Shown piece after piece: positions 20,472 through 37,789 of a stretch of DNA of 64,000 nt. The notes under the pieces were generated by a model. It ran no database searches, was not told the origin of the DNA, and was given only the letters and a program-made list of their open reading frames with translations. The DNA comes from Undaria pinnatifida. Lineage: Eukaryota > Sar > Phaeophyceae > Laminariales > Alariaceae. Numbering within the stretch: the first letter of the stretch is position 1; each line of letters opens with the position of its first letter. The position numbers and the translations under genes were made by a program. Where the stretch lies: positions 15,702,129 through 15,766,128 of the forward strand of contig JABAKD010000002.1 in the NCBI GenBank assembly GCA_012845835.1, given 5' to 3'.

Positions 20472-20850
20472 ACCATGCCATCGAAGGCAGGCGGGGCTTG
20501 GAGCTGGGCGCAGAGGCGTCTGTGCTTCCCACATACATCAACAGCGGGTCAGTACAAATGTGCTCGAATAATTCGGGAAGCGGAGCCCGACATTCATTGG
20601 GTTGAAATGAGTTGACCGTGGATTGATTTCATCTCGACCACGCCATTGAAGGCAGGCAGGGCTTGGGGCGTGGCGCAGAGGCGGGGCGACCCTGTGTGCT
20701 CGCGACATTCATCAATATATGGGCTGCGTACGTGAAAGCACTGCCGCTGCTGTCATAGGCGAGCACACGCCACACGCACGGTAACTAAGAGCAGAGGGTC
20801 AGTATGAGTGCGCTCGAATAATTCGGGAAGCGGAGCCTCGCTCGAAATGG

Positions 20851-21223
20851 TGTTAAGGTATTAGTGGGGTATTAGTCCGTTTGACCACTTGCAAAAGGTT
20901 AACCAATAGCTTACCCAAACTAAGCCTTATAACACTCTCCCCCCCTGAAACGGCGGGATAGCAGGTCGGCCGGATATACGGGCGGACCTGTCAATTATCC
21001 AAGCCGTTTCATTCCCTGGGGATACCAGGAAGAGTATTTTTCAAGTTCGACATGGGAAAATCTGAAAAGTTTATTATTGTGGATGGTGGGGATCGAACCC
21101 ACGACCCAAAAAACCCATGGTCTGTCGACGACGCCATTTGTTGAGGAATTTATTGGGGTATTAGTCCGTTTGACCACTTGCAAAAGGTTAAACAATAGCT
21201 TACCCAAACTAAGCCTTATAACA
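20851..21223 (-). mobile_element. TRIM-type miniature LTR retrotransposon, copy A
   Basis: 373-base element with direct terminal repeats of about 85 bases. In element orientation (minus strand) the LTR starts TGTTATAAGGC and ends CCTTAACA. ATGG flanks it on both sides (20847-20850 and 21224-21227), a 4-bp target duplication. Just inside the 5' LTR is AATGGCGTCGTCG, a candidate primer-binding site, and just before the 3' LTR is an AGGGGGGGAGAG polypurine tract. No coding capacity. These are the defining marks of terminal-repeat retrotransposons in miniature. Confidence 0.88.
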
Positions 21224-21540
21224 ATGGGTTGACCGTGGGTTGGTTATACTTGATAATATAATTGAAAAAAGTGCGCTCAAAATCCCATGCTATAATCCTA
21301 TTAATAGTGGAAAGTGCCCCAAAAAAAGTGCGCTCAGAATTTAAGTCCGATTTTTTCATCTCCCTGGCGGAGTACCAAAGAGTTACACTCTTAGAAAAAG
21401 TGTAAAAGCTGGATAGAATCACTCCTGCTAAGGTGATAAGTTATTAATACTGTTGGGTTTTATTAGTAATCTGATAATGCCAATCTGATTTTATTACGTG
21501 TGCTACCCACAACAACAGTTGTAATAGGGATGATTTAGAA

Positions 21541-21640
21541 AATATAGCTTAAGCTCACGACACTTACTTCCACATGTTTTCGTGCACATCGTGTGTCAAG
21601 TTAACTCCTCCATTGTATTCGCAAAATCATCGTATTTCAA
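21541..21640. repeat. Diverged copy of the 148-base SINE-like repeat
   Basis: GCTTAAGCTCACGACACTTA, then CACATGTTTTCGTGCACATC, matches the element at 63067-63214 and the copy at 49870-50005. The ends are not resolved here. Confidence 0.5.
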
Positions 21641-21709
21641 TTGGCTGTTGATGCTCACCCTGCCAACATCGGTAGGACAAACGAGCGGCAAGTGCATCAC
21701 GCAGCTTGC

Positions 21710-22473
21710 TGTTATAAGGCTTAGTTTGGGTAAGCTATTAGTTAACCCTTTGCAAGTGGTCAAACGGACTAATACTCCACTGATTCCTCAACAAATGGCG
21801 TCGTCGACAGACCATGGGTCTTTTGGGTCGTGGGTTCAAATCCACAACAATAATTTTTTTCAGACTTTCCCCATGTCGAACTTGAAAAATACTCTCCCCT
21901 ATACCCCCAGGAAATGAAACCGCTTGGATATTGGCAGGTCCGCCTGTATATCCGGCCGACCTGGTATCCCGCCATCCCGCCGTTTCAGGGGGGGGGGGGT
22001 TAATAAGGCTTAGTTTGGGAAGCTATCGGTTAACCTTTTGCAAGTGGTCAAACGGACTAATACCCCACTAATTCCTTAACAAATGGCGTCGTCGACGGAC
22101 CATGTTTTTTTTGGGTCGTGGGTTCAAGTCCTTGGTTAACCTTTTGCAAGTGGTCAAAACGGACTAATACCCCACTAATACATTAACAAATGGCGTCGTC
22201 GGCAGGACCATGGGTTTTTTGGGTCTTGGGTTCAAATCCCACCATCCACAATAATAAATCTTTTTCAGGCTTTCCATGTCGAACTTGAAAAAATATACTC
22301 TCCCCGGTATACCCAGGAAATGAAAACCGCTTGGATATTGACAGGGCCGCCCGTATATATGGCCGACCTGGTATCCCGCCGTTTCAGGGGGGGGTGTTAT
22401 AAGGCTTAGTGAAGCTGTTGGTTAACCTTTTGCAAGTGGTCAAACGGACTAATACCCCACTAACACCTTAACA
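21710..22473 (+). mobile_element. TRIM copy B, tandem array of four LTRs
   Basis: Four LTR copies (about 21710-21793, 22000-22081, 22132-22191 truncated, 22395-22473) alternate with two complete internal regions and one truncated one. Only one target duplication, TTGC (21706-21709 and 22474-22477), flanks the whole array. The joined flanks rebuild a copy of repeat X. This is best explained by template switching, or by unequal recombination between LTRs after insertion. Confidence 0.85.
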
Positions 22474-22601
22474 TTGCAAAGATGAGTATCGACCCTAAAT
22501 TTATCGAACTCACAGCTGACGTGTTTAGAAAAAAAATCGAGCTATTGCACCGACGCGTCACGATTATTGTTCAAGTATGATATAATAATACGTGTGGGTG
22601 C

Positions 22602-22974
22602 TGTTAAGGGCTTTAGTGGGGTATTGGTCCGTTAGACCACTTGCAACTGGTTAACCGATAGCTTACCCAAACTAAGCCTTATGACACTCTCCCCCCCTGA
22701 AACGGCGGGATAGCAGGTCGGCCGGATATACGGCGGACCTGTCAATATCCAAGCCGTTTCCTTTCCTGGGCATACCGGGGAGAGTATTTTCCAAGTTCGA
22801 CATGGGGAAAGTCTGAAAAAGTTTATTATGGTGGATGTGGGGCTTGAACCCACGACCCAAAATACCCCTAGTCTGTCGACGACGCCATTTGTTAAGGACT
22901 TTAGTGGGGTATTGGTCCGTTTGACCACTTGCAACTGGTTAACCGATAGCTTACCCAAACTAACCCTTATAACA
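22602..22974 (-). mobile_element. TRIM copy C
   Basis: 373 bases, same structure as copy A. Flanked by GTGC at 22598-22601 and 22975-22978. Its two LTRs differ at about four of 85 positions by eye. Polypurine tract and primer-site-like sequence are in the expected places for minus orientation. Confidence 0.87.
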
Positions 22975-23103
22975 GTGCGTTGCTCCCCTGTCCACCGTGG
23001 CAATTTCTGCGGATAGTACCTAGCTGAGCCCGCACTGTCCTTTTCCTCCGTTAGGATGGTTTCCGGATATCGGAAGACGCTCAGTCCATGTCCCTGAACC
23101 TTG

Positions 23104-23214
23104 AAACTTGCTATCAGCGGCATGTAACGCCCGGCAAACTGCTAGTCTAGACATGTAGGAACTTGCTATCAGCGGCATGTAACGCCCGGCAAACTGCTAG
23201 TCTAGACATGTACA
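23104..23214. repeat. Perfect 55-base tandem duplication
   Basis: The unit ACTTGCTATCAGCGGCATGT ... CTAGTCTAGACATGTA occurs twice back to back with no visible difference, so the duplication is recent. Confidence 0.85.
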
Positions 23215-23832
23215 ACAACACTCGCAACAAGTTGGGCACCGTGTCGACTAATTTTAAGAAATAAGGAATGGGCGAACCTTTTTGGAACTTCTGCTCAGGT
23301 GACAATTGCGTGCCGTCGGGTAGGGTAGTAGCAAGGGCCTGCTGCGGTTAGTTGCCGATGGTTGGAGGTGCACGCAGTAGTACCGGTATCAGTCTGGTGC
23401 TTGCTGCGTTCTGCCCTCACTGTAATTTGAAGTTGTTATATATGACCAGGACCGCAGCAGTTTTGTGTTCGTTGCTGCTGCCGCTTGTTGCCGTGCACGC
23501 TCTAATATGTGGCAGCGATGTTGTTATTCTTGTGTCGAGTCTGCATATCACGTATAGTCTAAGTGCTTTCTGCTTAGTCTGTTTTCATGCACCAGACGAA
23601 TTTACCTGACGCTTCTTGAATTTACCTGATGATGCTTCTTGTACGCCATGTCGCCACACCTTTTATATTATCTGTCTACCGGTAGTCTGCCCCGTGCTTA
23701 CTGCCGTGTGTCCCCTGCTCGCTCCTGCTGCTCCCGCTTTATGCTTGTTGGTGCTGCTCCGTTGCTGCTTTAGTGCGTGGTTTGTTTCTGCTGCGCTGCT
23801 GCTGAAGGCTGCATGCAGTATAGACTTTATAT

Positions 23833-24535
23833 GGTGTTGATGTTTCTTGTCGCTGCTGCTTGCGCAGAGGCCATTGCAGTGATAATGGTGCTGCTTATTG
23901 TTTGCCGGGTCGCTATATCGCCATATGGACACTCTCCGCGTAGCCTGTTTTTCAACAAGAAGATAACTTGTTTTGGTTTCTTCTATGACATGCCAAGCCT
24001 ATACATAAATATGTGTCTGATCTTCTCCTTGCTGCTGCGTCATGCCGCGTGTCCATGCTGCGCTGTTGCTTTAGAAACGATCCCGCTTTATGCTTCTTGG
24101 TGCTGCTCCGTTGCTGCTTTAGTGCGTGGTTTGTATGTTTCTGCTGCGCTGCTGCTGAAGGCTGCAGCTTAAATACCTAGACCTCGACCCCCTCGGAGGT
24201 TTCGCTCGGCATATCCTCCCCCCTCTCAGCCCTTCTCAGTCCGTAAAGGTGTTGATGTTTCTTGTCGCTGCTGCTTGCGCAGAGGCCATTGCAATGATAA
24301 TGGTGCTGCTTATTGTGTGCCGGGTCGCTATATCGATGTACACTCTCCGCGTAGCCTATTTTCAACAAGAAGATAACTTGTTTTGCTTTCTTCTATGACA
24401 TGCCAAGTCTATACATAACCATGTGTCTGATCTTCTCCTTGCTGCTGCGTCATTCCGCGTGTCCATGCTGCGCTGTTGCTTTGGAAACGATCCCGCTTTA
24501 TGCTTCTTGCTGCCACTCCTTGCTGCTGTAGAGGC
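23833..24535. repeat. Direct duplication of about 290 bases
   Basis: The blocks at 23833-24125 and 24249-24535, offset by 416, share GTTGATGTTTCTTGTCGCTG, CTCTCCGCGTAGCCT and CGTGTCCATGCTGCGCTGTT. They are rich in CTG triplets, and open frames across them (such as 23777-24172) are compositional. A third, single related segment lies at 23740-23820. Confidence 0.7.
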
Positions 24536-24539
24536 TGGA

Positions 24540-25260
24540 ATTCAATTTTTGTTGACTTTGTTTGTCAAGCAGCCATGATCGCCCATTTACTCTCTTGAGT
24601 AGTCTTCTTTGGAGTATTGAAGGCCTTCGCGATTGTTTGTTGCAGAAAAAGTATCGCAACCTACTCTTCGTCTAGTCTCCTCATTGCTGCTGCCTATTTT
24701 CGATGCGTGTCATTTCTTCATGCTGCTTGCCCATATGTACCTGTTGCGGCTGAAATAGTCTTGTCATGTGTTCTCGCTGCCGCTGTGTTGCTGATGGTAT
24801 CATATGGTTGACGTTGCTGATTTCCTATGCCCAACTGTTGCAGGCATATTACACTATCGGTCTCGCAGTCTGCCGCCGCTGTTGCTTCTTTTGTATCACA
24901 TGGTAGCATCATGTTGTTGCTTCTTTCTTTTCAACTAGCGTCACGTACTCTTGTGCTTTGTTACAACGTCGCAACGGCCGTTATGATGAGGGGAGCGACG
25001 TGGCGGGTACAACTCTGTCGTGTTGTATGTGGTGTTTTATCTACAGCAGTGCATGTACTTGAGGATGGGGCCACGATGTGGTCTTAGGGATAGGTATTGG
25101 ATGATTCTCTCCCTAGGGTATGCTATGGCTCCTTTATACGAACACCTTTTGTATTGTACTGGATTCAGTTCACCCCCCCCCCCCCCCGCTCCCCCCCCCC
25201 TTCCCCTGCACTCGCGCCTACACACACGTGCGCTTGAAAACTCCAGGCGACAGTGACGTC
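24540..25260. other. CTG-rich interval ending in a poly-C tract
   Basis: No gene is seen. The sequence is CTG/TGC-rich up to 25080, then has C homopolymer runs at about 25171-25200. Short hydrophobic frames result from the CTG/TTG bias. Confidence 0.35.
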
Positions 25261-25263
25261 CTC

Positions 25264-25587
25264 TACTCTTTCTTGATCGACTCGAGGGCATCGGCTGCGG
25301 CTTATTTTAGCACCGCGATGAATGCTTCATCGCCTTCAGCTTCCGCCTCCTCTTTTCGGATATCCTCGCGTAGACGTTTGTACTCCGCTCTTGCCTGCCG
25401 TCGATTTTCTCTCGTCTGCGTCTCCTTTTATCTGCCTCTGCTTTCCCGGTTCGAGCTTCCTGGATCTTCGTTTCCGCTCCATGCTTCTTAAGTGCACGTT
25501 CGGTGTCGCCTATTAATAGTCCAGACCAGGCGGAGCATCTGTGGTAGCAGTCGACTTTGGCCGTACAGCCTCAAGTTCGCGCCGCAA
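25264..25587 (-). pseudogene. Left arm of inverted repeat: C-terminal coiled-coil ORF remnant
   Basis: The arm is about 90 % identical to the reverse complement of 26218-26537. On the minus strand a frame enters from the TRIM side (25786 leftward) and encodes a highly charged peptide with EEAGMISSGDGGEESSG, then KRREKKAKESIADYMPAL, ending RRELEAVRP...PGLDY at 25513. After the stop a second frame continues with a Lys/Arg/Glu-rich helix. This resembles the C-terminal coiled coil of small DNA-binding proteins encoded by some DNA transposons, but no defining motif is present. Confidence 0.5.
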
Positions 25588-25807
25588 AGCCGGCATATAG
25601 TCCGCAATCGATTCCTTCGCCTTCTTTTCACGACGTTTAGTTGCTTGTCGGGCTTTTGACTTGGCGTTCAGTTTGTGCGCCTCCGCTCTAAAAGCGTTGC
25701 GCTCTCCGCGGTTGTCTCCGTAGTGGTCGTCATCCCCACTCGATTCCTCACCTCCATCGCCGGATGAAATCATTCCCGCTTCCTCGGCAATATCGTCTAT
25801 CGTCTAT

Positions 25808-26184
25808 TGTTATAAAGCTTAGTTTGGGTAAGCTATTGGTTAACCAGTTGCAAGTGGTCAAACGGACTAATACCCCACTAAAGTCCTTAACAAATGGCGT
25901 CGTCGGCAGGACCATGGGTTTTTTGGGTCGTGGGTTCGATCCCCACCATCCACAATAATAAACTTTTCAGATTTTCCCATGTCGAACTTGAAAAATACTC
26001 TTCCTGGTATCCCCAGGAAATGAAACGGCTTGGATATGGAAAGGTCCGCCGGTATTATATCCGGCCGACCTGCTATCCCGCCGTTTCAGGGGGGGAGAGT
26101 GTTATAAGGCTTAGTTTGGGTAAGCTATTGGTTAACCAGTTGCAAGTGGTCAAACGGACTAATACCCCACTAAAGTCCTTAACA
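25808..26184 (+). mobile_element. TRIM copy D, in the loop of an inverted repeat
   Basis: 377 bases, TGTTATAAAGC start and CCTTAACA end, flanked by CTAT at 25804-25807 and 26185-26188. The GTGGGTTCGATCCCCAC stem-loop sits between the primer-site-like sequence and the rest of the internal region. A GGGGGGGAGAG polypurine tract precedes the right LTR. It lies in the spacer of the 320-base inverted repeat. Confidence 0.87.
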
Positions 26185-26217
26185 CTATCGTGTGACGCCA
26201 ACGTCTGGGTTAACTGC

Positions 26218-26537
26218 TTGCGGCGCGAACTTGAGGCTATACGGCCAAAGTCGACTGCTACCACAGATGCCCCGCCTGGTCTGGACTATTAATGATCGAC
26301 ACCGAACGTGCACTTAAGAAGCATGGAGCGGAAATGAAGATCCAGGAAACTCGAGCCGGGAAAGCAGAGGCAGAACAGGAGACGCAGACGAGAGAAAATC
26401 GACGGCAGGCAAGAGCGGAGAACAAGCGCCTACGCGAGGATATCCGAAAAGACAAGGCGGAAGCTGAGCGGGTTGAAGCGTTCATCGCGGTGCTAAAGTA
26501 AGCCGCGGCCGACGCCCTCGAGTCGATTGAGAAAGGC
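26218..26537 (+). pseudogene. Right arm of inverted repeat: coiled-coil ORF remnant
   Basis: Frames here are CLRRELEAIRPKSTATTDAP...GLDY (stop at 26290-26292), then an open frame 26292-26501 of 69 codons (MIDTERALKKHGAEMKIQ ... LREDIRKDKAEAERVEAF). It is strongly helical and rich in Lys, Glu, Arg and Ala. The two frames are joined across a stop in both arms, so the stop either predates the inversion-duplication or was copied with it. Product unknown. Confidence 0.5.
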
Positions 26538-26539
26538 AA

Positions 26540-27447
26540 CGCTGCGCCAGATGCGTGAATGCAACCGTTGCTGTGAGGTGTTCTCGCAATTCGTATTTCG
26601 TTGATTTCCTTTGAGGTATCGTAACGTGATCTTCGTTGCACGTATTAACAGTGTGTATACTAACCCGGAAGCACGTATTGAGTAGGGGCTGTCTTTCAGG
26701 GGCGTGCAGGGGGGCGGCTCGTGGCTGGACGTTGATGTCATGCAACCGCACCTGTCATCTAAAGACTGGCACATACATGTGTGGTTCTTTGGTTCATGCT
26801 TTTTTGGCACACATAAAGTGCAAGTCACCGTGTTTGTGTGTGGATCATGAACGTCGGGGCGAGGAGAGGGGGAAAGGGGAGGGCGGATACTTACTGCGCG
26901 TCACCGTAAATGCTGGGTCAGTCCATGAACGGACTCGCTTGCGCTGGCGTTTTGGTTTGATCAGTTTTTTCCAAGTATCTGGCATTGACGACACAGACGG
27001 CATATCGGTGTTTTTGTCTGCAGTATGTACGACTCTTGGGGTGAGAGGGGGATGGGTTTTCGGTTTGTTTGCTCCCTTTTAGTGATGCCGCTGTCGGTTA
27101 AAGGTGTGGCATGTTTTTTTTTTCAGGGTACGGGGTCAACACTTTTTCAGGGTACGGCGTCAACATAAAAGCTCGATAAACAAGATCGGGAAAAAACAAA
27201 AAGGGAATTGCGGCTCGACTCGAACCTACCAGGTGCAATGCTATACGTGGTAATGTACTTTCCGCATTTACTTCAAGATCGAAATCCCGACACCAATTTC
27301 AAGACAAAAATTCCAGACAAAAATCAGTATGTGTCCTTTTTTTCATACGTACCAGTGCGTGTTTAGGGTAGTAATACACAGTACACGTAGTTTATTATAA
27401 CATGTACTTCGAAGTGTGCTTATATTTGCTTCTTTCTGCTCGAATCA
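26540..27447. other. Unassigned interval
   Basis: Frame 26636-27082 plus (148 codons) has no recognisable domain. GACTCGAACCTACC near 27212 looks like a reversed Pol III B box, but no tRNA fold is possible around it. No gene is called. Confidence 0.3.
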
Positions 27448-27455
27448 CCCAACAA

Positions 27456-28443
27456 GAGGGATGTACTTGAACGTTATTTGTCTTTTTGGCAGAGCTCCGC
27501 GGCAGTGTCCACGGACCTCCACGGCATTTCACGGACATGTCCACGGCGTTCCGCGGAAAACCGCGGATATTCCACGGACTACCGTGCACCTTCCACGGGC
27601 TTCCGCGGAAACTCCACAGGCTTCCACAGAATGCCGCGGCAAGTAGCGGGACATCGCAGAGGCCCATGGCACTAGCCATGGCACAAGCCACGGCAATTTC
27701 CATGGCAACGTCCACGGTAATGACGGAAAATTCCACGGCAGCACCCACGGCCAGCCGCGGCCACCCTCGGACGTCCACGAAATCACCCGCGGACACCCGC
27801 GGACATACTCACGGAAACATTCACGGACACGCTAACCCTGACCCGCGGACATACCCACGGAAACATCCACGTACACCTACGGACACGTCCGCGGGAAACA
27901 CCCGTGGACATACCCACGAAGACCCACGGACACTTCTACGGAAACACCCACGGGAACATCCAAAGTGCGCGGAAACAGCCGTAGCAATCGCCGCGGACTT
28001 CCGCGGACGTCCGTGGTATTTGTCGCGCCTCGGATATTTGCCATGCCAATGGCCGCGGACGGCCGCGGATTGCCGTGGAACTAGCTCCGTTTGAAAGTCC
28101 GCGGAAACAGCCGTGGAAATTGCCGCGGACTTCCGCGGACGTCCGTGGTGATTGTCGCATTGCCGTGGCAATGGCCACGGATGTCCGCGGAAACTTCCGT
28201 GGCAATTGCCGCGGACTTCCATGAGTTGCCATGGTTGGTACCACGGTGTTTGCCACGGACAGAGCCGCTGCTCGTGCCGTAGCACAACCGTGACATTTAG
28301 CGTGAAAGTGTCATGAGCCATGGCCCTTGCCGTGGAATCGCGGAATTGCGCGGTAGCCCGTGGCAACACCCGTGGAAGTCCGCGGAAGTTCCACGGTCAT
28401 CGCCGCGGACCGCCACGAAAAAGTCAAATAATGTGCATCCCTG
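27456..28443. mobile_element. Foldback hAT-like element built of CCRCGG motifs
   Basis: 988 bases flanked by a perfect 8-bp duplication, CCCAACAA (27448-27455 and 28444-28451). Left end GAGGGATGTAC and right end GTGCATCCCTG form terminal inverted repeats that continue through ATTTGTCTTTTT / AAAAAGTCAAAT. The right terminus reads CAGGG inward, as in hAT elements. The interior carries CCACGG, CCGCGG or CCGTGG roughly every 10-14 bases, mainly CCACGG on the left and CCGTGG on the right, so the whole can fold back. Long frames through it (27486-28094 plus, 27821-28369 minus) are repeat artefacts. No transposase is encoded. Confidence 0.85.
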
Positions 28444-28451
28444 CCCAACAA

Positions 28452-30140
28452 GAACACCCACCTCCTGAGCTGGCATGTTTAGTTGTTTTGTCGTCGACCA
28501 TATAGTGAAGCACAGCGCAGCCAGCGCAGTACAGCAGAGAAAATAATTTAGTACTTGCCGATCATAGCATGCAAGCGTAAGCAGACAGAGTTGTCGAGGG
28601 ACTCACCATGTCGTCGAGCGTTTTCTGTAGCTCGCTGTTGAAAAAATAAGCATAAATCGAAATTCGACCGGCCAAAAAACGTACACAACAACGTAATAAG
28701 TAGCATAAGCTAGCTAGCGGGGGGTTAGGGTTGGCAAGCAACTAAGCAACGGAGTTTGCTTTGATTATTGCTCATTCACTGTTTTGAAAAGTTGCTTAGC
28801 TTAGTTGCTTAATTAGTTCGTAAGGCGTTTAGTTTGTGCATACTAAAACCTTTATACATATAATTATATGGAATTTCAGTACGGCCATACTAAAACTCGA
28901 ACCATTATGTGTGCACTAAACTTCGTACGCCGGATACCTTCTGACAAGAAGGGGGCGGGCTCATCTCATTCAGGCAGGCGATAACGCTTGCCCGCCAGGA
29001 AATAACGTAAAACGTACCACAAGTCATAACGCCAGGACGGGGGAGAGGGGACATCATGACATTTTTGCGGCCCAAGTCTCCGATACGAATAATACCTCGC
29101 ACCATGAACGATGGATGTGGATTCATAGGATGGAAACCACAACGGATAATGTCGCATGCACGCAGAAACGCCGTGTTTCATCATGCAAATTGTGCTCAAA
29201 AATGTAAACTTCATGCGGGTGCGCGCGAAAGCGCAGCTTTTATGTTTCGGACCGATATACCAGGGTACGTCGGTACCTGCCTGGTACTCGTAGTATTAAA
29301 AAATACCCTGGCAAACAAAGTAGACCGCCCGTCCGGCCACAAGCATGCATGCGCATCAAAATCTTAACATGCCGCACCGTGCACGTAGTTCCAAAAGCAT
29401 CGCCAACCCCCATCGCCGGCAACATACATCGTCGACGCCCGTTGTCTACCAAATACATCGCCGATTCCCATCGTCTACAGTGATCCCAGGTGTAGCCCAT
29501 GTCGTTGAAGTTGCCAAAGGTTCTTCGGTTTTTAGATATGATCTTGCTGCCTGAAAACGAACGTTGCATACGAAACGTTGTTCAGGATGTTTGGATACTC
29601 GCCAACCCTGGACCGTGAAAAAAGAAATCGGATTTCGGCCAAGAATAACAACCAATAAATGCTGGTGACCAAAACATGTATACAGGGGACCAAACAAACT
29701 ACTGTGCGAGTAGCAAACAGGCCAATCGGCTTGCGCAACCTGCGCTCCAATCCTCGAGTCTGTTTCTAACATAAAGTCCAGAAAACCATATCCAGTCTGC
29801 TGCCGTTGACGAAACGTTTTTGTTGCAATGTGGCGTATTGTACCAAACACAATAATGTGGTATCAGCTCTCTGGCTCGTCATCGGAGTTCCTGGGTAGTT
29901 AACTACAAGAATATAATTACGATCGGATTCATGGGGTATGCTTTTCTTCATCTCCGACCTCACTGGTTGAAAAGCAATCATAGGATGAATCCATCACGCG
30001 AGTAAGAGCCGAGAGACCGAGGCACCATGTCCGTTGAACAAGGATGTATTTGCATGGCAATTACTAAGCGTAAACATCCAGGCATCTACAGTAGACATCC
30101 TTCGAAGCTTCAAAGCAGGCAATACTACTGTAGTACTTTA
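28452..30140. other. Unassigned interval with a short hairpin
   Basis: An imperfect inverted repeat (GCAAGCAACTAAGCAAC near 28733 and GTTGCTTAGCTTAGTTGCTT near 28791) could form a hairpin MITE. Minus-strand frames at 29446-29850 and 29766-29981 show mixed, protein-like composition but no domain or clear splice pair. Confidence 0.3.
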
Positions 30141-30198
30141 CTGGAAACGTCTCTCCAGGCAAACCGAATGCGGCAGGTGTCTTTCTCGCGGATCTTGC

Positions 30199-30452
30199 TT
30201 ACCTCATCGGCGGCCTTGGGAGTAATGTAATTTCTTCCTTTATAATCTGAGCCATTCCACCAATCTGTCTTTTCTGCGCTATCGACAGTTTTCTCCTTGT
30301 CCTCTGCAGCAGTAGCTTGTACCTGGTATGCAGCATGAACGTGATGGCCGACGGGGAATTGAGCACACGGACGTCAACAAGCTTTACGAAACTACGGCCA
30401 TGCGGTTTTGTCAGATACAACAAGCGATTTTCGGTTAGGTATTTTGCGATGA
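30199..30452 (-). CDS. Candidate internal exon, unknown protein
   Basis: A minus-strand open stretch of about 84 codons is bounded by a possible acceptor (GATAAG|CTCATC near 30452) and a good donor (CCGATGAG|GTAAGC near 30201). It encodes KYLTENRLLYLTKPHG, then SFVKLVDVRVLNSPSAITF, then RRKLSIAQKRQIGGMAQI, a balanced composition unlike the neighbouring repeats. Without splicing a TAA follows at once. No family is recognised and no partner exon was proven. Minus-strand frames at 31631-31846, 32054-32323 and 33048-33389 might belong to the same gene. Confidence 0.35.
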
Positions 30453-30459
30453 GCTTATC

Positions 30460-33400
30460 AGATTCAGATCGCGAAATACGTCAGAACCGACGGCGCCATG
30501 TTCAGCTCACGGTTTGCGCATTTTCCTGCCCTGCTTCAGGATATCAGCTATATCCAATACTGCGGTCGTTGTCACTGTATCGACGTAGCTGGCGCATTTG
30601 TGAACATTACAGCAGCACTGGTTATCAAGGCGTGAATGGTATCAACCCCAATTGAAGCTCGAATCACCTGTTTATCTTGCCATCTGCTCGGCCGCCGGCA
30701 CCACCAAGCCTGCGCACCACCGTCAAAATGGGAGCAGACGAACATGTGGCTTGGGCTTGGGGGTTACTGGACGGTGTAGAGCGATGGGTCTGCGGACACA
30801 CTGGGCCCATCAGCCTCGTGATGCGTTGCTGGTTCTATGGCATCTGCTACCAAAATCCCTGTCACCACCAGACTTTGAGCTCACCTCACTAATTGGCGAT
30901 TTCCGCTGTGCAGATCCCGATGAATCAGCTTCGAATTTCGAACGGTATAAGTGTATATCCTCCTCGATTGCCCGCTTCAGGGTATCACAACGCCAATAGC
31001 TTGCCTCCCGGTAGAGCTGTCAAACGAAATGACATGTAGGGGGCAATGTGAAGGAAGTCCGTGGTAATCAACGGACCAGGCACCCTACGCATGTCATGCG
31101 TGACGCGACGAAGATGGTCGAGAAAGTACGGCTGCCTCATAGGCATCTAGCTTCGCCCGCACCTTGGTGGGTGGTCGAGTCCTGCTGTCAGTGACTCCCT
31201 AAGCAAAATCAATTTCCCTTATGTACGAGCCCACGTTTCACAAATAACTGTATTGTCGTACGGTTGCTCGACCCCTAAACTAGTGCTTCAGACACCACCT
31301 GTCACTATAGGGTGCGTACGCAACAGTCACACATTAACTTTGGTAGAAATATTACTACAGTTGTATGCAACGATTGTTTCGACGGTCGCACGGTGGTAGC
31401 TAGTCCCACTCTGTGGCGGTTGAGTTGGGAAAGTTAACATTCATCGCGACGTTGGAGGGGGTCATCTGTGAGAACGGCGTAAAAAGAATGCGTTTAAAGC
31501 GGTAGGAACCGAAAACAAAACGCGATGGATCACACGTAAACCTTTCTATCCTGCTGGTGATATAGCACTATACCACCACAAGGATAGGGAGAAACCAAGT
31601 GTCTCCATCAATCGATTAATGTTCTTGGTCCTACATTGCAGATATTCGCATGCTGTAAGACGGAGAACGATTCACGTCTATTGACCAACTCGACCGTTGG
31701 CTGATTAGCCGGGTGTTGCGATTTACCAGGGTATTGTCCGCACATTGCCCCCGTTTGTCGGCGGTTCGTTTTGATTTGGGTTCAAGAGGCAATACTACTG
31801 TACGGCGATCACCGGAAACTTTTCGGTGAATGGCCGGGATGAACACGAGCGCACCGTCAAGTGGGACAGTATCGACAGCCTCCTAACGCGCCAATCTCTT
31901 GCACAGTACGAATGCTCTTAATGGGGAAAACAACATGCGATTGGTCTCTCACACAAACCTCAAAAGGGCGCTCACTCACCTGGGTAAGCAATGCCCTGTC
32001 TGTAGGCAAAACCCCGTCGCGCAGGAATTTGATAACATATCGAAACGTCCACCTTAGATAGGCCGGTCGAAAATGCAGCGAAAGTTATACGAATGCAAAA
32101 GGGCATCAACGGCAGAATTAAGTGAAGGCCGGAGCATGGTCGTATACATAGAGTGTTGATAAATGGCGGATAACACACATGTATAGGGTAACTCCACGAG
32201 GTCGCGCCCAAAGCTCGCACCAGATATCGCATACGCTTGAGAACAGCTGGTCAAACAGTTCGTCAAAGTCTTCAACATGTGCTTGTCTGCCTCTGAGGTG
32301 AACCCTTTACCAGGCATAATCACAGGGATGCCAGAGGTGGGTCACACAAATGTACGTGCTTCCTGCCAATGGCACACAAAACAATCAGATGTATAGTACC
32401 AAGTAATCCTACCCACTACCAAGATGTGATGACGTTTTTTATTGTGGGCGATCTGAAAATAAAAAATAAACCCTCAGGTAGTTGACGATACTTCGGCGGC
32501 TGATAGTATGTCTTTTTCATAGTAATACAGTAGGTCAAGAGGGAGAGAAAAGAGTCGCTAAGGAGGTCGATTTCAAAACAGACGAGGGGACGACACAAAC
32601 CACTCAGAATCCCTCAATGCTAACACACAGGGAACGGGGAATATTACTATGCTGGTTTACTTTGGAGCACCAACACTTTTCATTTTTTTACCTACAGAAA
32701 AGTTATCGTGTAGTGTTTGGTTTGACATGTGCCACCAAGCAGTGACGCACGCTTTCGAATGTTTTCCCGGTGCAATCTTCTACCAGCCGCTTGTATGCTC
32801 GTTTCAATTCTTAAATTCCACATATCCGAGCATCTTTCGTTGCGCGCTGTAGTTAGACTCCCTCCAACACACTCACCAATCTCTATCAACTTGAACGGTG
32901 CCATCACCGTCCACAATCAGTGGCCCGTTGTTCTCACAAAGGGCAGCCAGAAGACATTCGGGGTCTCGCCTGAGGACTGCACTCGATGCCTCAAACATCT
33001 GCGGTTGTCAATGTGATCGTCAGAACCGGTGAGGTGCACAATACTCGTCAAGGTTCAAGCAACCCTTGCAAAAATATGCCAGGGATATTTTGACGGTAAA
33101 CCATAAAACCAAAGACAGCTATTCCAATATTAGGCAGGGTCGTTCCTAACGAATAATTAAACCCGAACGATCCCAAACCGCAACACAGGGGGTTATAAAT
33201 CCTGCGAGGGGGGCTCTTTGGTTGAAGTTGATCCTTAATCCTGCAAGCAGCAAGCCAGTTTTCATTGATTGCCTCACACACCTCACCCGCCCCACACAAC
33301 GATATCACCTTCCCCTCCGAACGCTCTACATCAGTCACCACCCAGCCCTGTAGGGCACGGACACGAGGTAGATGAGGCTGCGTCACCATAGCTAGGCCGG
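30460..33400. other. Interval with possible minus-strand exons
   Basis: No repeat family dominates. Minus-strand segments with non-repetitive composition include 33048-33389 (GWVVTDVERSEGKVISLCGA between a CTACAG acceptor and a GTGAGG donor), 32054-32323 and 31631-31846. I cannot chain them in phase with confidence and recognise no domain. Confidence 0.25.
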
Positions 33401-34990
33401 GAGGGCCCTCTCTCGGCTGTGCTGTGGTGGGCTACTACTACTACAGCTGCAGCTGCTGTGTCTTCTTCGCGTTTGTCGCCATACACATCCGTGCTCTTGT
33501 CTTTGGTTGTGTGTGTCGCCACACGCCCGCCCTTGTTTTACTCATCATGTATGTGTCTCGCGTTTTCCGTCACAATCGTGCGCAGCCGCGTCCTAGCGGA
33601 AGATGGCAACCACGTGTGAAAGGCTGCCGGACAGCAGCACGGTGTGAGGGCGCGCACGTGCGTGCGCACACGGTGGCACTACTCCAATGCATCTCGAGGA
33701 TTGCCCACACAAGATGAATGCCGTATGTCCCGCAGTTTTTAGGACACAACATCCCGATCTACGAAGAAGGCGCATTGGTTTCTGCTGTCACAGCAGTTAT
33801 GCAAGAATGTTGCCGGAAATTTCCGCCAAGAATTTTCCCAGAAATTCGTGGTGGGCATACTTTTATAGTGATGGAAAAAAAAGGTTTCCAATTACATTGC
33901 AGGCATTATTCCTATCGGACCTGGAAGGCGTTATACACTCTCGATTTACTCTACAACCACCCCGTTATCTTATTTCGGTTTCTACCGGAAGCTCGATTTC
34001 TCCCGAAATTGGGAAAAACCTAAAATTTTCACCCCCGGAAAAACTGGCCTTCAAGTTTTTCAGTTTTTGTCGTAGGAAAAAACTAAAATTATTTAGGTAC
34101 AACGGTATAGAGGACCGGGCAGCGGCACCGCTCGAGCTGTGCCACCACTTGCGAGCGCACGAGACTGAGCAGGGTCGTTCCCAAGGTCGTCGGCAGGCCA
34201 TGGCTGATCGCAGAAGGCGCAGAAAGCTTCTGAGCTCTCGTCGTCGAGTTGACAAAGTGACCGCACCGAGGCGGCCGACCGAACGAGCTCGCTGACGGCA
34301 ATAGCTGGGACTTTTGTCACGTTGGGCGTTGTAGCGCGACGAGTTGGTGATGGATTTCACTCACCCCAAGGCACCGACACGTGCCTACGAGTAAGACCGA
34401 CTCCAGCGAGACAACCACGTGGGTATCTTCCGCGAGCGTTGCTGCTGTAGTGACGGTTCTGTGCTTGGTGGGCGATTGTTTTGCGAGCCAACTGAGGCTC
34501 GTACTTGTGAAGATTCGACCTTCGCAGATTTCGGTAAATGCCGAAATTTCGTCAAAAACTGAAGTGCTGTACGTATCGTTCGGACCGACCCTACCAGCGA
34601 AGTTCCTGACGCCATTTCTAATTAAGGACCGCGCTAAATAATAGGGGTATCGCGTGCCCCAATCTCTGTGTCCAGTCCAGGAGATTTCCAGAAAGAACAA
34701 ACTGAGGAACGGGTCGAGTCTTTTTCGTCGTCCTCACCGTGCGGCTACTGCTTGCATCGTGTTCGACTTTTCGTTTCCCACCAATGCGCACAGCTGACGG
34801 CATGTACAAACATCCACCAGCGAGAGTTCCTAGGGAGAGAGCTCGCAGTGTCCATATACGAACTCGTGCACAATTAACACTGCCCTCAAACACACGTTTA
34901 AGTAACTGCTCGCGATAGTTTACAAACCATATTGCCAAAACCTTGCGCTGGTGATGCTATAGTCTACACAGGAAAAGTTTGACGTACGAA
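33400..34990. other. Unassigned interval downstream of the coiled-coil gene
   Basis: Plus frame 33687-34295 (202 codons) and minus frame 34093-34320 (with SSEAFCAFCDQPWPADD, two CxxC-like cysteines) overlap. Neither has support beyond openness. The minus-strand 3' UTR of the gene at 35011-35849 probably lies here. Confidence 0.25.
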
Positions 34991-35010
34991 CTGGCCATCG
35001 TACTTCGTCT

Positions 35011-35849
35011 TCAGACTGCCTCATCAATCAAGTCTTCCAAATAAACAAACTGCGCCAAATTGCCTGTATCACGCGTACCTGCCCCCCTACATTGAGTCGT
35101 ACTCGTTTCCCTCCAGCGTGTGGCGAGCTTCCCAAGGGCATCCAGTCGTCACCTTTCATCAGGCTGAAGTCGGTAATTTCCTGTCGAAGCATTTCCTCCT
35201 CCCTGACCAGCGAAAAAACATTCAAACGACGGCGTTTTCTGTGCCAAACAAAAAAGCCCGGCGTACTTGACTCGAGTACTTCCATGTTTTTCAAGCATGC
35301 AACAACGGGCGTACTTACTTGACTCGTCCGAAGGAATCCTACGGTACGATGTGCGAGCGGTACGGCATGAACGTAGCAACTCTGTCAGGCTCGGCCAGAA
35401 AGACAACAACACGCCACCACAGAAGCAGAGTAGTTTTAGGTACTGTACCAGGTGTCACGGGTATCAAGCAATCACGGAAAAACCTCACATGCGAGCCCGG
35501 CGCCGCTCTTCCCGAAGAAAAGCACGTTGGCGAGCGAGCTGAGATACGAAAAGGTAGCAACGGAGCATGGCGGAACCGTATGGAATTCAGCAGGGAAATA
35601 AACAAGCAAGGCCAAGGGTGAGACAGTGTAGTATGCGGAATATGGAGACGGGCCAACCAACACCTGCTGTACTGCTGTAGATGTTTTCAGTTTGCGTTCG
35701 TATCATGTCATCATACCGACCTTTTGTGCCTCCTCACGCAGCTCGCTCGCTCGCTGAGCGACTACCGTGCCCTCAAGACTAAGGCTTTCCTCCATCTCTT
35801 CGGTAATTTTATCCACATTTTTCAACCAGCCACTCGATCCGATGTCCAT
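35011..35849 (-). CDS. Small coiled-coil protein, four exons
   Basis: Four exons join in phase on the minus strand: 35849-35721 (129 nt, start MDIGSSGWLKNVDKITEE), 35538-35489 (50 nt), 35202-35153 (50 nt) and 35078-35011 (68 nt with TGA). Introns begin GTCGGT, GTGAGG and GTGACG and all end AG. The split codons AT|G and G|GT rejoin cleanly. The 98-residue product is strongly charged and helical: VVAQRASELREEAQK, then LARQRAFLREERRRARM, EEEMLRQEITDFSLMKG, and an acidic tail NLAQFVYLEDLIDEAV. It looks like one long coiled coil with a hydrophobic N-terminus, as in golgin or cytoskeletal adaptors, but I cannot name the family. The start lies 243 bases from the divergent TPR gene, suggesting a shared promoter. 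The last intron (74 bases) has a poor pyrimidine tract and is the weakest call. Confidence 0.6.
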
Positions 35850-36092
35850 GGAGATCCTTGCGATTCCGCCGACCCACGTGCAATGCTACTGGGCGCGTAC
35901 GTGTAGAGACGAGGACGCCACCTCGAGACAAAATAGAAAACGTTTCAGATATAACGCTTCAAAACCACTGTAACTCCACACACTCGTTTTGTTGAACGTG
36001 AGAGTGCCTGGGTGAGAGTGGACTGCTCCCCCGGTACCCTTTGCTATACTTGTACTTTTGACGTGCTTGTTCGTTGCACAAGGACAGGGAAA
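35850..36092. promoter_or_regulatory. Probable bidirectional promoter
   Basis: This 243-base gap separates the start codons of the two divergent genes. It contains no repeat element. No TATA box stands out. The call rests on gene arrangement only. Confidence 0.4.
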
Positions 36093-36554
36093 ATGGCAGA
36101 GGCTAACGTTGCAGATGGAGCAGAAAAGCCTGTCATCGCCACACCTGTGGCTGGCGATGAGCAGGAAGATGCGGAGGAAGGTTGGAGGATCCAGGCGGAG
36201 GCGTTTAAAAGTGAAGGTATGTATAAAGCAGTACTGCTACGTAGTAAATAGTGACCTATCATACCGGTACGTGGTAATGGGGATACGTACGGGGTACCTT
36301 TACTGCTGCGCCTGGATTTTGTGTCCAGTTGTGACAGGGTCCCGCGGTGTCGACTTGTCGATGCGATACATACGCGTGCTCTTATCCCACGTGCCATTTT
36401 GTATTCGCAATATGCAGGCAACGACGCGTTTAAAGCTGGGAAGTGGACGGAAGCAGTCGAAGGTTACACTCGGGCGATCGACCTTGATCCAGACAACAAG
36501 GTACTGCTCTACTGCCGCACCGCCTGTACCTCTGACGTAGACCCAGAAGAATAA
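36093..36554 (+). CDS. TPR co-chaperone-like protein, 5' part, truncated
   Basis: Exon 1 (36093-36216) begins MAEANVADGAEKP, runs through an acidic linker to AEAFKSEG and ends at AAG|GTATGT. Exon 2 starts after ATGCAG at 36418 and completes the codon: GNDAFKAGKWTEAVEGYTRA, then IDLDPDNK. Together they form a typical first TPR motif of STI1/Hop-, SGT- or TOMM34-like proteins (G-N-x-x-F, A-I-x-L-x-P positions), which bind the C-termini of Hsp70/Hsp90 in the cytosol. After DNK the frame continues VLLYCRTACTSDVDPEE to a TAA at 36552, where family members would read VLYSNR and further helices. The remaining repeats are not found before the Harbinger-like insertion at 36644. The gene is either broken or continues through introns I cannot follow. 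Confidence 0.65.
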
Positions 36555-36643
36555 ACCACAAGTAAGCACCAAATGTCTTCGATATTTTCAGCTGGATATT
36601 TTCAATCGGAATGCCGATTTTCGTTTTTATTAGATTACTCTAC

Positions 36644-37789
36644 GGCCATTTCTTATACAGTCGGATTCCGCCAGTCGAAAACGGCCCTTTTCGACTGGAC
36701 TTTTTTTCGACTGGATTTTCCCCCGTTCCTCTCCTTACAGCAGTCGAGTCGATTTTATAGTTTTTGTGCTCTTCCTAGAGGCGGTTCGTGTGAGGGAGTA
36801 CTACTCTGTACTGCTGTACTGCTGAATGGCAGTCAAAAATCGGTTGGCAGCTCTGTCAGCTGTGCTTTGCGCGTTCTGCTTCGCGCGCGACGAACCTTCG
36901 TCCAAGCGGATTGGTGGCGTTGGGCTTAGCCGAAAGCCGCCAAAAATTAAGGTATTAGTGGGGTATTAGTCCGTTTGACCACTTGCAACTGGTTAACCAA
37001 TAGCTTACCCAAACTAAGCCTTATAACACTCTCCCCCCCTGAAACGGCGGGATAGCAGGTCGGCCGGATATACGGGCGGACCTGTCAATATATCCAAGCC
37101 GTTTCATTTCCTGGGTATACCGGGGAGAGTATTTTTCAAGTTCGCCATGGGAAAATCTGAAAAAGTTTATTATGGTGGATGTGGGGATCGAACCCACGAC
37201 CCAAAAACCCACGGTCTGTCGACGACGCCATTTATTAAGAAATTTAGTGGGGTATTAGTCCGTTTGACCACTTGCAACTGGTTAACCGATAGCTTACCCA
37301 AACTAAGCCTTATAACACAAAGCTATGCCCGTGGCGTTGCACTCAGCCGAAAGCTGCCAAAGCTACAGCAGGCGTAGCCGTTGTTGGCAGAATGGCATCG
37401 ATAACGCGCGCTACTGCTGTCGTGTGATACACGCTGCTGGCGGGCGGAGCTAGGAGTGCGCCACGCTGACTTGCGGCGAGAAGCAGCAGCAGTGATAGCA
37501 AAGGCAGCGTCGGCGCTGTTGTATGATACTGCTGTGTGGTACCTGGTATGGGGGTGTGGGGGGGTGGGGGTGTGCTTTGTGGTGGGATGAGCGATGCGAT
37601 GGGTTCAAAAAAAGGGTTAAACTTTTTCGACTGGAGGATCCAGTCGAAAATAGTCGAGTTTTTCGACTGGATCCGTCAGTCGGAATTCTGAGTCGAAAAA
37701 GCCCTTTTTGGACTGTGTAAGAAAGCCCGATGTGGGCTTCAGTCAAGAACCGTTTTCGACTGACATATCCGACTGTACAAGAAATAGCC
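36644..37789. mobile_element. Harbinger-like non-autonomous element, copy 2
   Basis: Same termini as copy 1 (GGCCATTTCTTATACAGTCG at the left, GACTGTACAAGAAATAGCC at the right) and the same CAGTCGAAAA-rich subterminal zones. Flanked by TAC at 36641-36643 and 37790-37792. It is 769 bases without the TRIM inserted at 36945-37317. It lies 90 bases beyond the stop of the truncated TPR gene. Confidence 0.8.
36945..37317 (-). mobile_element. TRIM copy E, nested in Harbinger-like copy 2
   Basis: 373 bases with LTRs of about 85 bases. CAAA flanks it (36941-36944 and 37318-37321), and Harbinger copy 1 shows the empty site (GCCGCCAAAGCTAC). The outer two bases of its left end are AA instead of TG, a small decay. 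Confidence 0.88.

Follow-up and report, generated by a model that had tools for sequence, protein, structure and literature searches.

In plants, terminal-repeat retrotransposons in miniature (TRIMs), including the arrayed TA-TRIMs, are small non-coding elements bounded by long terminal repeats (LTRs). A single target site duplication (TSD) surrounds their arrays, and their helper is rarely identified; one survey reports related larger elements for 11 of 289 subfamilies, four of them with full proteins (PMC4717578). Helenus/TRIMp3 is another TRIM; animal Helenus makes 4-bp TSDs, and the Helenus LTR is reported to carry a tRNA-like sequence (PMC10886601). In the account of Ty3, dead-end plus-strand strong-stop DNA accumulates in the particles, and the primer sequence is usually not inherited, as is also described for Ty1 (PMC5371799). 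In HIV-1, 1-methyladenosine at position 58 of the primer tRNA (m1A58) is described as setting the end of plus-strand strong-stop DNA (PMC13191261). Five insertions of a comparable kind lie in a window of 64,000 nucleotides from the brown alga Undaria pinnatifida (assembly GCA_012845835.1, contig JABAKD010000002.1, positions 15,702,129 to 15,766,128). They are copies of one TRIM family in which no coding capacity was seen. The element thus belongs to a known kind, here in a brown alga; its likely helper, primer and failed reverse-transcription products are unusually well documented in the genome. The explanation that best joins the observations, and one that we consider very probable, is a TRIM primed by tRNA-Ser and copied and integrated by the enzymes of a Ty3/gypsy element with a different LTR (LTR2), with chimeras and tRNA copies as by-products. 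The Undaria family differs from the plant examples of the survey in its host and in its 4-bp TSDs, those in plants being 5 bp (PMC4717578), and also in that its helper is recognised through chimeras and not through sequence homology.

All five window insertions were checked base by base and by script, which bore out the LTRs of about 85 bp, the primer site, the polypurine tract (PPT) and the exact 4-bp duplications reported in the initial annotation. Copies a (20851-21223, minus strand, TSD ATGG), c (22602-22974, minus, GTGC), d (25808-26184, plus, CTAT) and e (36945-37317, minus, CAAA) are single units of 373-377 bp in total, with LTRs of 84-85 bp and an internal part (INT) of 203-207 bp. The 5' LTR of copy a, read in sense, occupies 21139-21223 and its 3' LTR 20851-20934; the LTRs of copy d (25808-25892 and 26100-26184) are 99% identical. 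Copy b (21710-22473, plus) had rightly been counted as an insertion of the family, but its structure had been missed: it is a tandem multimer from which parts are missing, LTR-INT-LTR-INT(1-49)-LTR(30-85)-INT-LTR, with a single duplication, TTGC, around the whole. The TGTTA...TAACA ends ascribed to all five copies hold in general but fail at one end of copy e, where the plus strand begins at position 36945 with AATTAAGG and not with TGTTAAGG, so that the outer two bases are AA in place of TG; the duplication CAAA still fits despite this loss. The primer binding site (PBS)-like motif TGGCGTCGTCG lies 2 bp inside the 5' LTR of the window copies, at 21126-21136 in copy a (minus strand; complementary to the 3' end of tRNA-Ser plus CCA), 21796-21806 in the first unit of copy b (plus), 22877-22887 in copy c (minus) and 37220-37230 in copy e (minus). 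In copy d, the 18 nt that follow two spacer bases, TGGCGTCGTCGGCAGGAC (25895-25912, plus), match the complement of the tRNA-Ser 3' end plus CCA at 18 of 18 positions, and the PPT GGGGGGGAGAG (26089-26099, plus) directly adjoins the 3' LTR. Direct terminal repeats with TG..CA ends, LTR pairs that are alike, a PBS complementary to a real tRNA-Ser, a PPT at the 3' LTR, a TSD within 4-6 bp and a total below 1 kb, with no room for reverse transcriptase (RT) or integrase, uphold the identification as TRIM. Ten long reading frames of the window gave no match in Pfam, and no LTR2 or gypsy piece lies within it.

The family was then considered across 511,146,479 bp in 68 contigs, a genome for which LTR elements have been reported at 8.7% and unknown repeats at 36.1% (PMC7058681). 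Two whole-element queries returned 2740 and 3430 first-look candidates, the best 40 of each being scored; the sample of 78 loci around matches, plus the window, therefore consists of best-scoring and not of random copies. Once duplicates had been removed, along with window copy a, which the script dropped as an overlap, there were 102 chains of LTR and internal pieces: 53 LTR-INT-LTR, 15 LTR-INT-LTR-INT-LTR, three with three internal parts, and assorted fragments. Of these chains, 75 consist of three or more pieces and are bounded by an LTR on each side, and 65 of the 75 have both TGTT and ACA ends. Among these 65 intact-end insertions, 56 are flanked by exactly 4 bp of duplication, one by 6 bp and one by 8 bp (both with repetitive flanks), one by 2 bp and six by none. 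The 4-bp duplication therefore stands genome-wide, with at least 4 bp in 58 of 65 sampled intact-end insertions, against 1.0% when flanks of different insertions were compared (4160 pairings). Of the ten chains with a changed or unplaced end, one has a 4-bp duplication, four have 3 bp and five have none. The target sequence around the duplication has a palindromic bias, and within the 53 single elements the two LTRs resemble each other more closely than shuffled pairs do (0.966 vs 0.953; 0 of 2000 shuffles). The high local density in the window, which had been considered striking, is real and fits a tendency of sampled insertions to neighbour each other: 13 of 75 loci, mostly of about 3.4 kb, contain more than one chain, while about 1.5 would be expected under an even spread of the 3430 candidates, a loose count. 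The 13 include the cluster in the window itself (L009) as well as cases of a single array split by an insertion. A narrow literature search on TRIMs in brown algae found no such family; the element is a new TRIM family, its scarred and chimeric by-products being the unusual part.

The primer is, as far as the sequence tells, tRNA-Ser. The tRNA-end pattern TTCRANTCCTGCCGACGACG has 64 exact sites in the genome vs 0 for the reversed control, and most of the sampled sites are not genes; two loci, L083 (C24:6754056) and L109 (C18:10351564), are tRNA-Ser(AGA) genes according to ARAGORN. The first 11 nt of the PBS are exact in 104 of 118 TRIM internal copies and all 18 nt in 8 of 118. The same tRNA-Ser PBS also follows a third LTR-like type (L080, L082, L112), which ends in ..ACCACCACA or ..ACCACTACA with the spacer AT. 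This type bears tRNA copies as well, and position 58 keeps T, as in the gene, in all three that were read.

At some loci, the TRIM interior is preceded not by the TRIM LTR (LTR1) but by LTR2, a 269-bp repeat unrelated to LTR1 except at its ends. LTR2, for which the best 40 of 1233 first-look candidates were scored, is present in 16 of the 78 loci fetched for LTR1, about 0.6 being expected under an even spread. The element to which it belongs has in common with the TRIM the TGTTA..TAACA ends, an 11-nt PBS, a similar PPT (contexts TCAGGGGGGGAGAG and TCAGGGTGGGCTAG) and the 4-bp duplication. A copy on C22 (L086) has LTR2, a PBS matching over 11 nt only, and the TSD ATAT on both sides of the coding part. 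Between its LTR2 copies, a gag-like zinc knuckle was noticed by eye, together with an integrase (H2C2, E 8.9e-12; rve 2.4e-6, below its cut-off; Ty3 integrase, E 1.5e-28). RT was not found in the parts of this copy that were read, about 3.5 kb lying outside them. Integrase matches stand 2000-2008 bp from LTR2 matches at four places, on C22, C57, C1 and C30, among the best 147 of 3652 integrase candidates and the 41 LTR2 matches listed. On C30, a frame of 2473 amino acids is open at the integrase match (C30:12257565), and a 2.4-kb piece upstream encodes Ty3-like RT and RNase H (RVT_1, 5.2e-27; Ty3 RT, 2.6e-67). The order of RT and RNase H followed by integrase is that of Ty3/gypsy elements, the RT piece having been read and the integrase being a search match. 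A separate RVT_1 search did not place the partner RT among the best 150 of 3526 candidates, and a chromodomain-like tail noticed by eye, which after an integrase would mark the chromovirus branch of Ty3/gypsy, was not called by Pfam. The partner thus resembles Ty3 (PMC5371799) in its RT, RNase H and integrase. As to the family that supplies the integrase, a question raised in the initial annotation, a good and indirectly supported answer is this Ty3/gypsy family with 269-bp LTRs, which is likely the helper.

A sign of the partnership is given by five insertions that start with LTR2 and finish with LTR1. Exact 4-bp TSDs flank four of them (L040, ACTA; L070, ATAC; L024, TATG; L003, ATAT), and the fifth (L071) lies between CATC and CATA. 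In L040, L024 and L071, an 18-nt tRNA-like PBS stands at the junction. Normal reverse transcription yields two identical LTRs. The occurrence of LTR2..LTR1 chimeras with TSDs therefore suggests that the TRIM and the LTR2 element were probably reverse-transcribed together. A further candidate chimera, L045, was rejected because its TRIM had landed inside LTR2. For few TRIMs has a helper been identified; here the repeated occurrence of chimeras indicates one without the aid of sequence homology.

A second record is found behind the LTRs. Many LTR-PBS junctions, among them those of L005 and L037, extend into a copy of tRNA-Ser. A 31-nt pattern with position 58 left open has 204 sites, and its control none. 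Among the 100 sites listed, the letter at position 58 of the cDNA, counted by eye, is A in 63 (17 of which form one array on C13), T in 29, C in 8 and G in none; T is the gene letter, and the 29 include real genes. Twenty sites were fetched by choice, 17 with A and 3 with C at this position; LTR1 ends precede nine of them and LTR2 ends another nine. The joins mostly differ between them, and L090, L093 and L100 are attached to the same gypsy 3' region but not at the same point. When position 34 was left open as well, 79 sites with A58 had C in 46 (17 in the array), G in 32 and T in 1, and 45 sites with T58 had T in 5, C in 17 and G in 23, again by eye; two of the T34 sites with T58 were verified as genes. 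Among the sites with T58, L082 and L112 follow the third LTR-like type, L111 follows an unassigned end, and L107 resembles a tRNA gene. Thirteen sites reach through position 26 into the 5' half of the tRNA: six have the gene letters (T34, C26), seven have both changed and none is mixed. Position 34 of the seven is C six times and G once, and position 26 is T five times, G once and A once. At 20 loci, most copies stop around nt 37-30, around nt 26 or at the tRNA 5' end, and a few in between. Six LTR2 junctions (L007, L024, L040, L042, L050, L071) match the tRNA through nt 59 and then diverge, and in L005 LTR2 does so slightly earlier.

Most departures of the copies from the tRNA gene fall at positions 58, 34 and 26, and these changed letters are apparently traces of chemical modifications of the tRNA. 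Misincorporation caused by N2,N2-dimethylguanosine (m2,2G) at position 26, by m1A at 58 and by inosine at 34 has been reported (PMC12140624), as has the reading of m1A as T (PMC11019740). From other eukaryotes, m1A58, I34 and m2,2G26 would be expected in Undaria tRNA-Ser, and the three positions behave as modified bases would. G at position 34 fits a CGA isoacceptor, whose gene was not identified. In our reading, the tRNA copies are integrated dead-end plus-strand strong-stop DNA. Such copies would identify the primer from genome sequence alone, and the dead-end DNA of the Ty3 model would gain a visible fate. A narrow, open-access-based literature search found no report of tRNA scars in integrated copies. 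On C13 (868352-874126), 17 tRNA-Ser copies stand at an exact spacing of 359 bp; L094, the one read, is an LTR1-PBS-tRNA unit followed by TRIM interior, and the whole looks like an array of one scarred TRIM.

Together, the chimeras and tRNA copies give strong indirect support to the proposed movement of the TRIM by RNA with the enzymes of an autonomous element. On this view, the gypsy enzymes would act on packaged TRIM RNA, with mature tRNA-Ser as the primer for reverse transcription, and would integrate the product with 4-bp duplications; the shared ends, 11-nt PBS and similar PPT are what RT and integrase would need of both partners. Chimeras could originate when plus-strand strong-stop DNA of one partner moves to the minus-strand DNA of the other; in the clearest ones, the LTR2 strand may have been transferred to the TRIM minus strand via the shared PBS. 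Plus strands passing the m1A58 block would copy the primer further, and such dead-end strands might later be joined, often near the 3' LTR, and then integrated. Many tandem arrays may have formed before or during integration. The six junctions that leave the tRNA after nt 59 recall the m1A58 stop described for HIV-1, but read-through past the block seems common enough in Undaria to have left many genomic copies (PMC13191261). Ty3 is similar in that the tRNA sequence is usually not inherited; it differs in that its dead-end strands accumulate in particles, whereas in Undaria they appear integrated in the genome (PMC5371799). In contrast to Helenus (PMC10886601), no tRNA was called by ARAGORN in the window, the TRIM LTR included; the tRNA copies beside some Undaria LTRs look like read-through of the primer.

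Several observations weigh against this account. All the data are from a single assembly. Of the five chimeras, only three have the tRNA-like PBS at the junction. L070 instead has the PBS of the TRIM, behind an LTR2 whose end already resembles LTR1, and L003 retains only positions 1-160 of LTR2, which breaks off there. Transfer at the PBS alone is therefore insufficient for these two, which require a different crossing point. Position 58 is not always changed among the tRNA copies, since copies with T58 also follow LTR1 ends (L108, L113) and LTR2 ends (L110, L114); some tRNAs would thus have been read faithfully or been unmodified. Three copies (L037, L087, L096) retain C at position 26 and two (L082, L111) have G there, the position lying at the limit of the copied sequence or close to it. 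Two of the 20 fetched sites (L102, L104) show no match to LTR1 or LTR2.

As for the tandem arrays, it has been suggested for other TRIMs that unequal crossing-over between LTRs is responsible (PMC4528315; PMC11899658), and shared-LTR arrays in Undaria could likewise have arisen only after insertion, which we consider rather unlikely. The 17 scarred units on C13 must indeed have multiplied as a unit. However, fresh duplication would make internal copies alike, and within 24 arrays (four at one locus) they are no more alike than shuffled ones (0.962 vs 0.9615; 794 of 2000 shuffles reach it). A single 4-bp TSD surrounds 17 of 18 arrays with intact ends, which is compatible with both models. In 22 arrays, outer LTRs resemble each other more than shuffled pairs do (2 of 5000), and inner-to-outer pairs do not (589 of 5000); a direct paired test of outer vs inner LTRs gave p 0.21. 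The disagreement between the shuffle test and the paired test leaves this evidence mixed, a further point to the debit of early formation, and a test of rare-variant sharing, a weak one, found few shared sites in arrays. We lean towards arrays formed no later than the integration step, some of them, such as the C13 units, having expanded afterwards.

The identity of the helper also has a competitor. The TRIM and the gypsy pieces read share only their ends, PBS and PPT, with no internal homology, so the case for the LTR2 family has to be made from the shared ends and the chimeras. The main helper could instead be some unseen family whose LTRs resemble LTR1, with LTR2 elements as occasional co-passengers, and a further LTR-like type with the same PBS does exist. 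We regard this as improbable: the LTR2..LTR1 chimeras recur, and the best 40 of 1567 LTR1 candidates include no pair at the spacing of a coding element.

Still less probable is that the tRNA-like stretches derive from isodecoder genes or from one amplified founder, their changes being inherited variants and not scars. A tRNA-Ser-like sequence with an unusual anticodon loop lies within a tRNA cluster (L107, C24:6755710), and the LTR1-linked copy L103 has the same loop. Some copies have been amplified, as in the C13 array, and the gene implied by G34 is missing from those identified. Against this, A, T and C occur at position 58, and T, G and A at position 26, while the neighbouring letters are constant, and the copies stand behind different LTRs with different end points. 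The sequences that ARAGORN called tRNA-Ser(GGA) (L112) and tRNA-Ser(CGA) (L092, L099) each stand behind an LTR-like end with its primer site.

The 288-nt tandem units, the strong predicted folding of the TRIM RNA (z -5.2) and the 4-bp TSD with TGTTA ends might suggest a circular-RNA retrozyme or a cut-and-paste unit of the Ginger type (Ginger elements have TGTTA ends). Either is hardly credible, as Rfam at gathering scores found no family in the window, a permissive scan of 20801-26300 (5.5 kb) with known Rfam families found no ribozyme, self-cleaving ones included, and PBS, PPT and tRNA copies are in keeping with tRNA priming of reverse transcription.

Returning to reverse transcription with gypsy enzymes, two loci look like one-step births of miniature elements. 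L005 is LTR1-PBS-tRNA-INT(133-201)-LTR1-INT-LTR1 with the TSD TATG on both sides, which marks it as one integrated unit. L050 consists of LTR2, an 18-nt PBS matching the tRNA, the last ~340 bp of the gypsy interior and LTR2, with TATA on both sides. We tentatively propose, as a serious possibility but not yet the favoured one, that miniature LTR elements here regularly arise through aberrant plus-strand transfer: a strong-stop LTR with at least 18 tRNA bases would be joined to minus strand made only from near the 3' LTR and integrated, L050 being a product of this type, and the joins would archive the past modification state of the tRNA. The chimeras and tRNA copies make two open questions testable, namely the origin of miniature elements and the way in which plus-strand transfer fails.

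Some minor features may be added. TRIM internal position ~137, 64 bp before the 3' LTR and near a strong predicted hairpin, is a recurrent breakpoint at which truncated or tRNA-bearing units are joined. A T-arm/B-box-like stretch, GTGGGTTCGATCCCCAC, lies at window positions 25930-25946, 35 bp past the PBS start, with equivalents in other copies; the tmRNA-like matches that were all the permissive scan returned come from a T-arm-like stretch inside the element. Sequences resembling A and B boxes, noticed by eye, occur only in the TRIM internal region, and the T run between them speaks against a pol III promoter. Full-length primer copies beside LTR ends (L092, L099, L112) are called as tRNA-Ser genes by ARAGORN, so that automatic tRNA annotation of the Undaria genome may be inflated.

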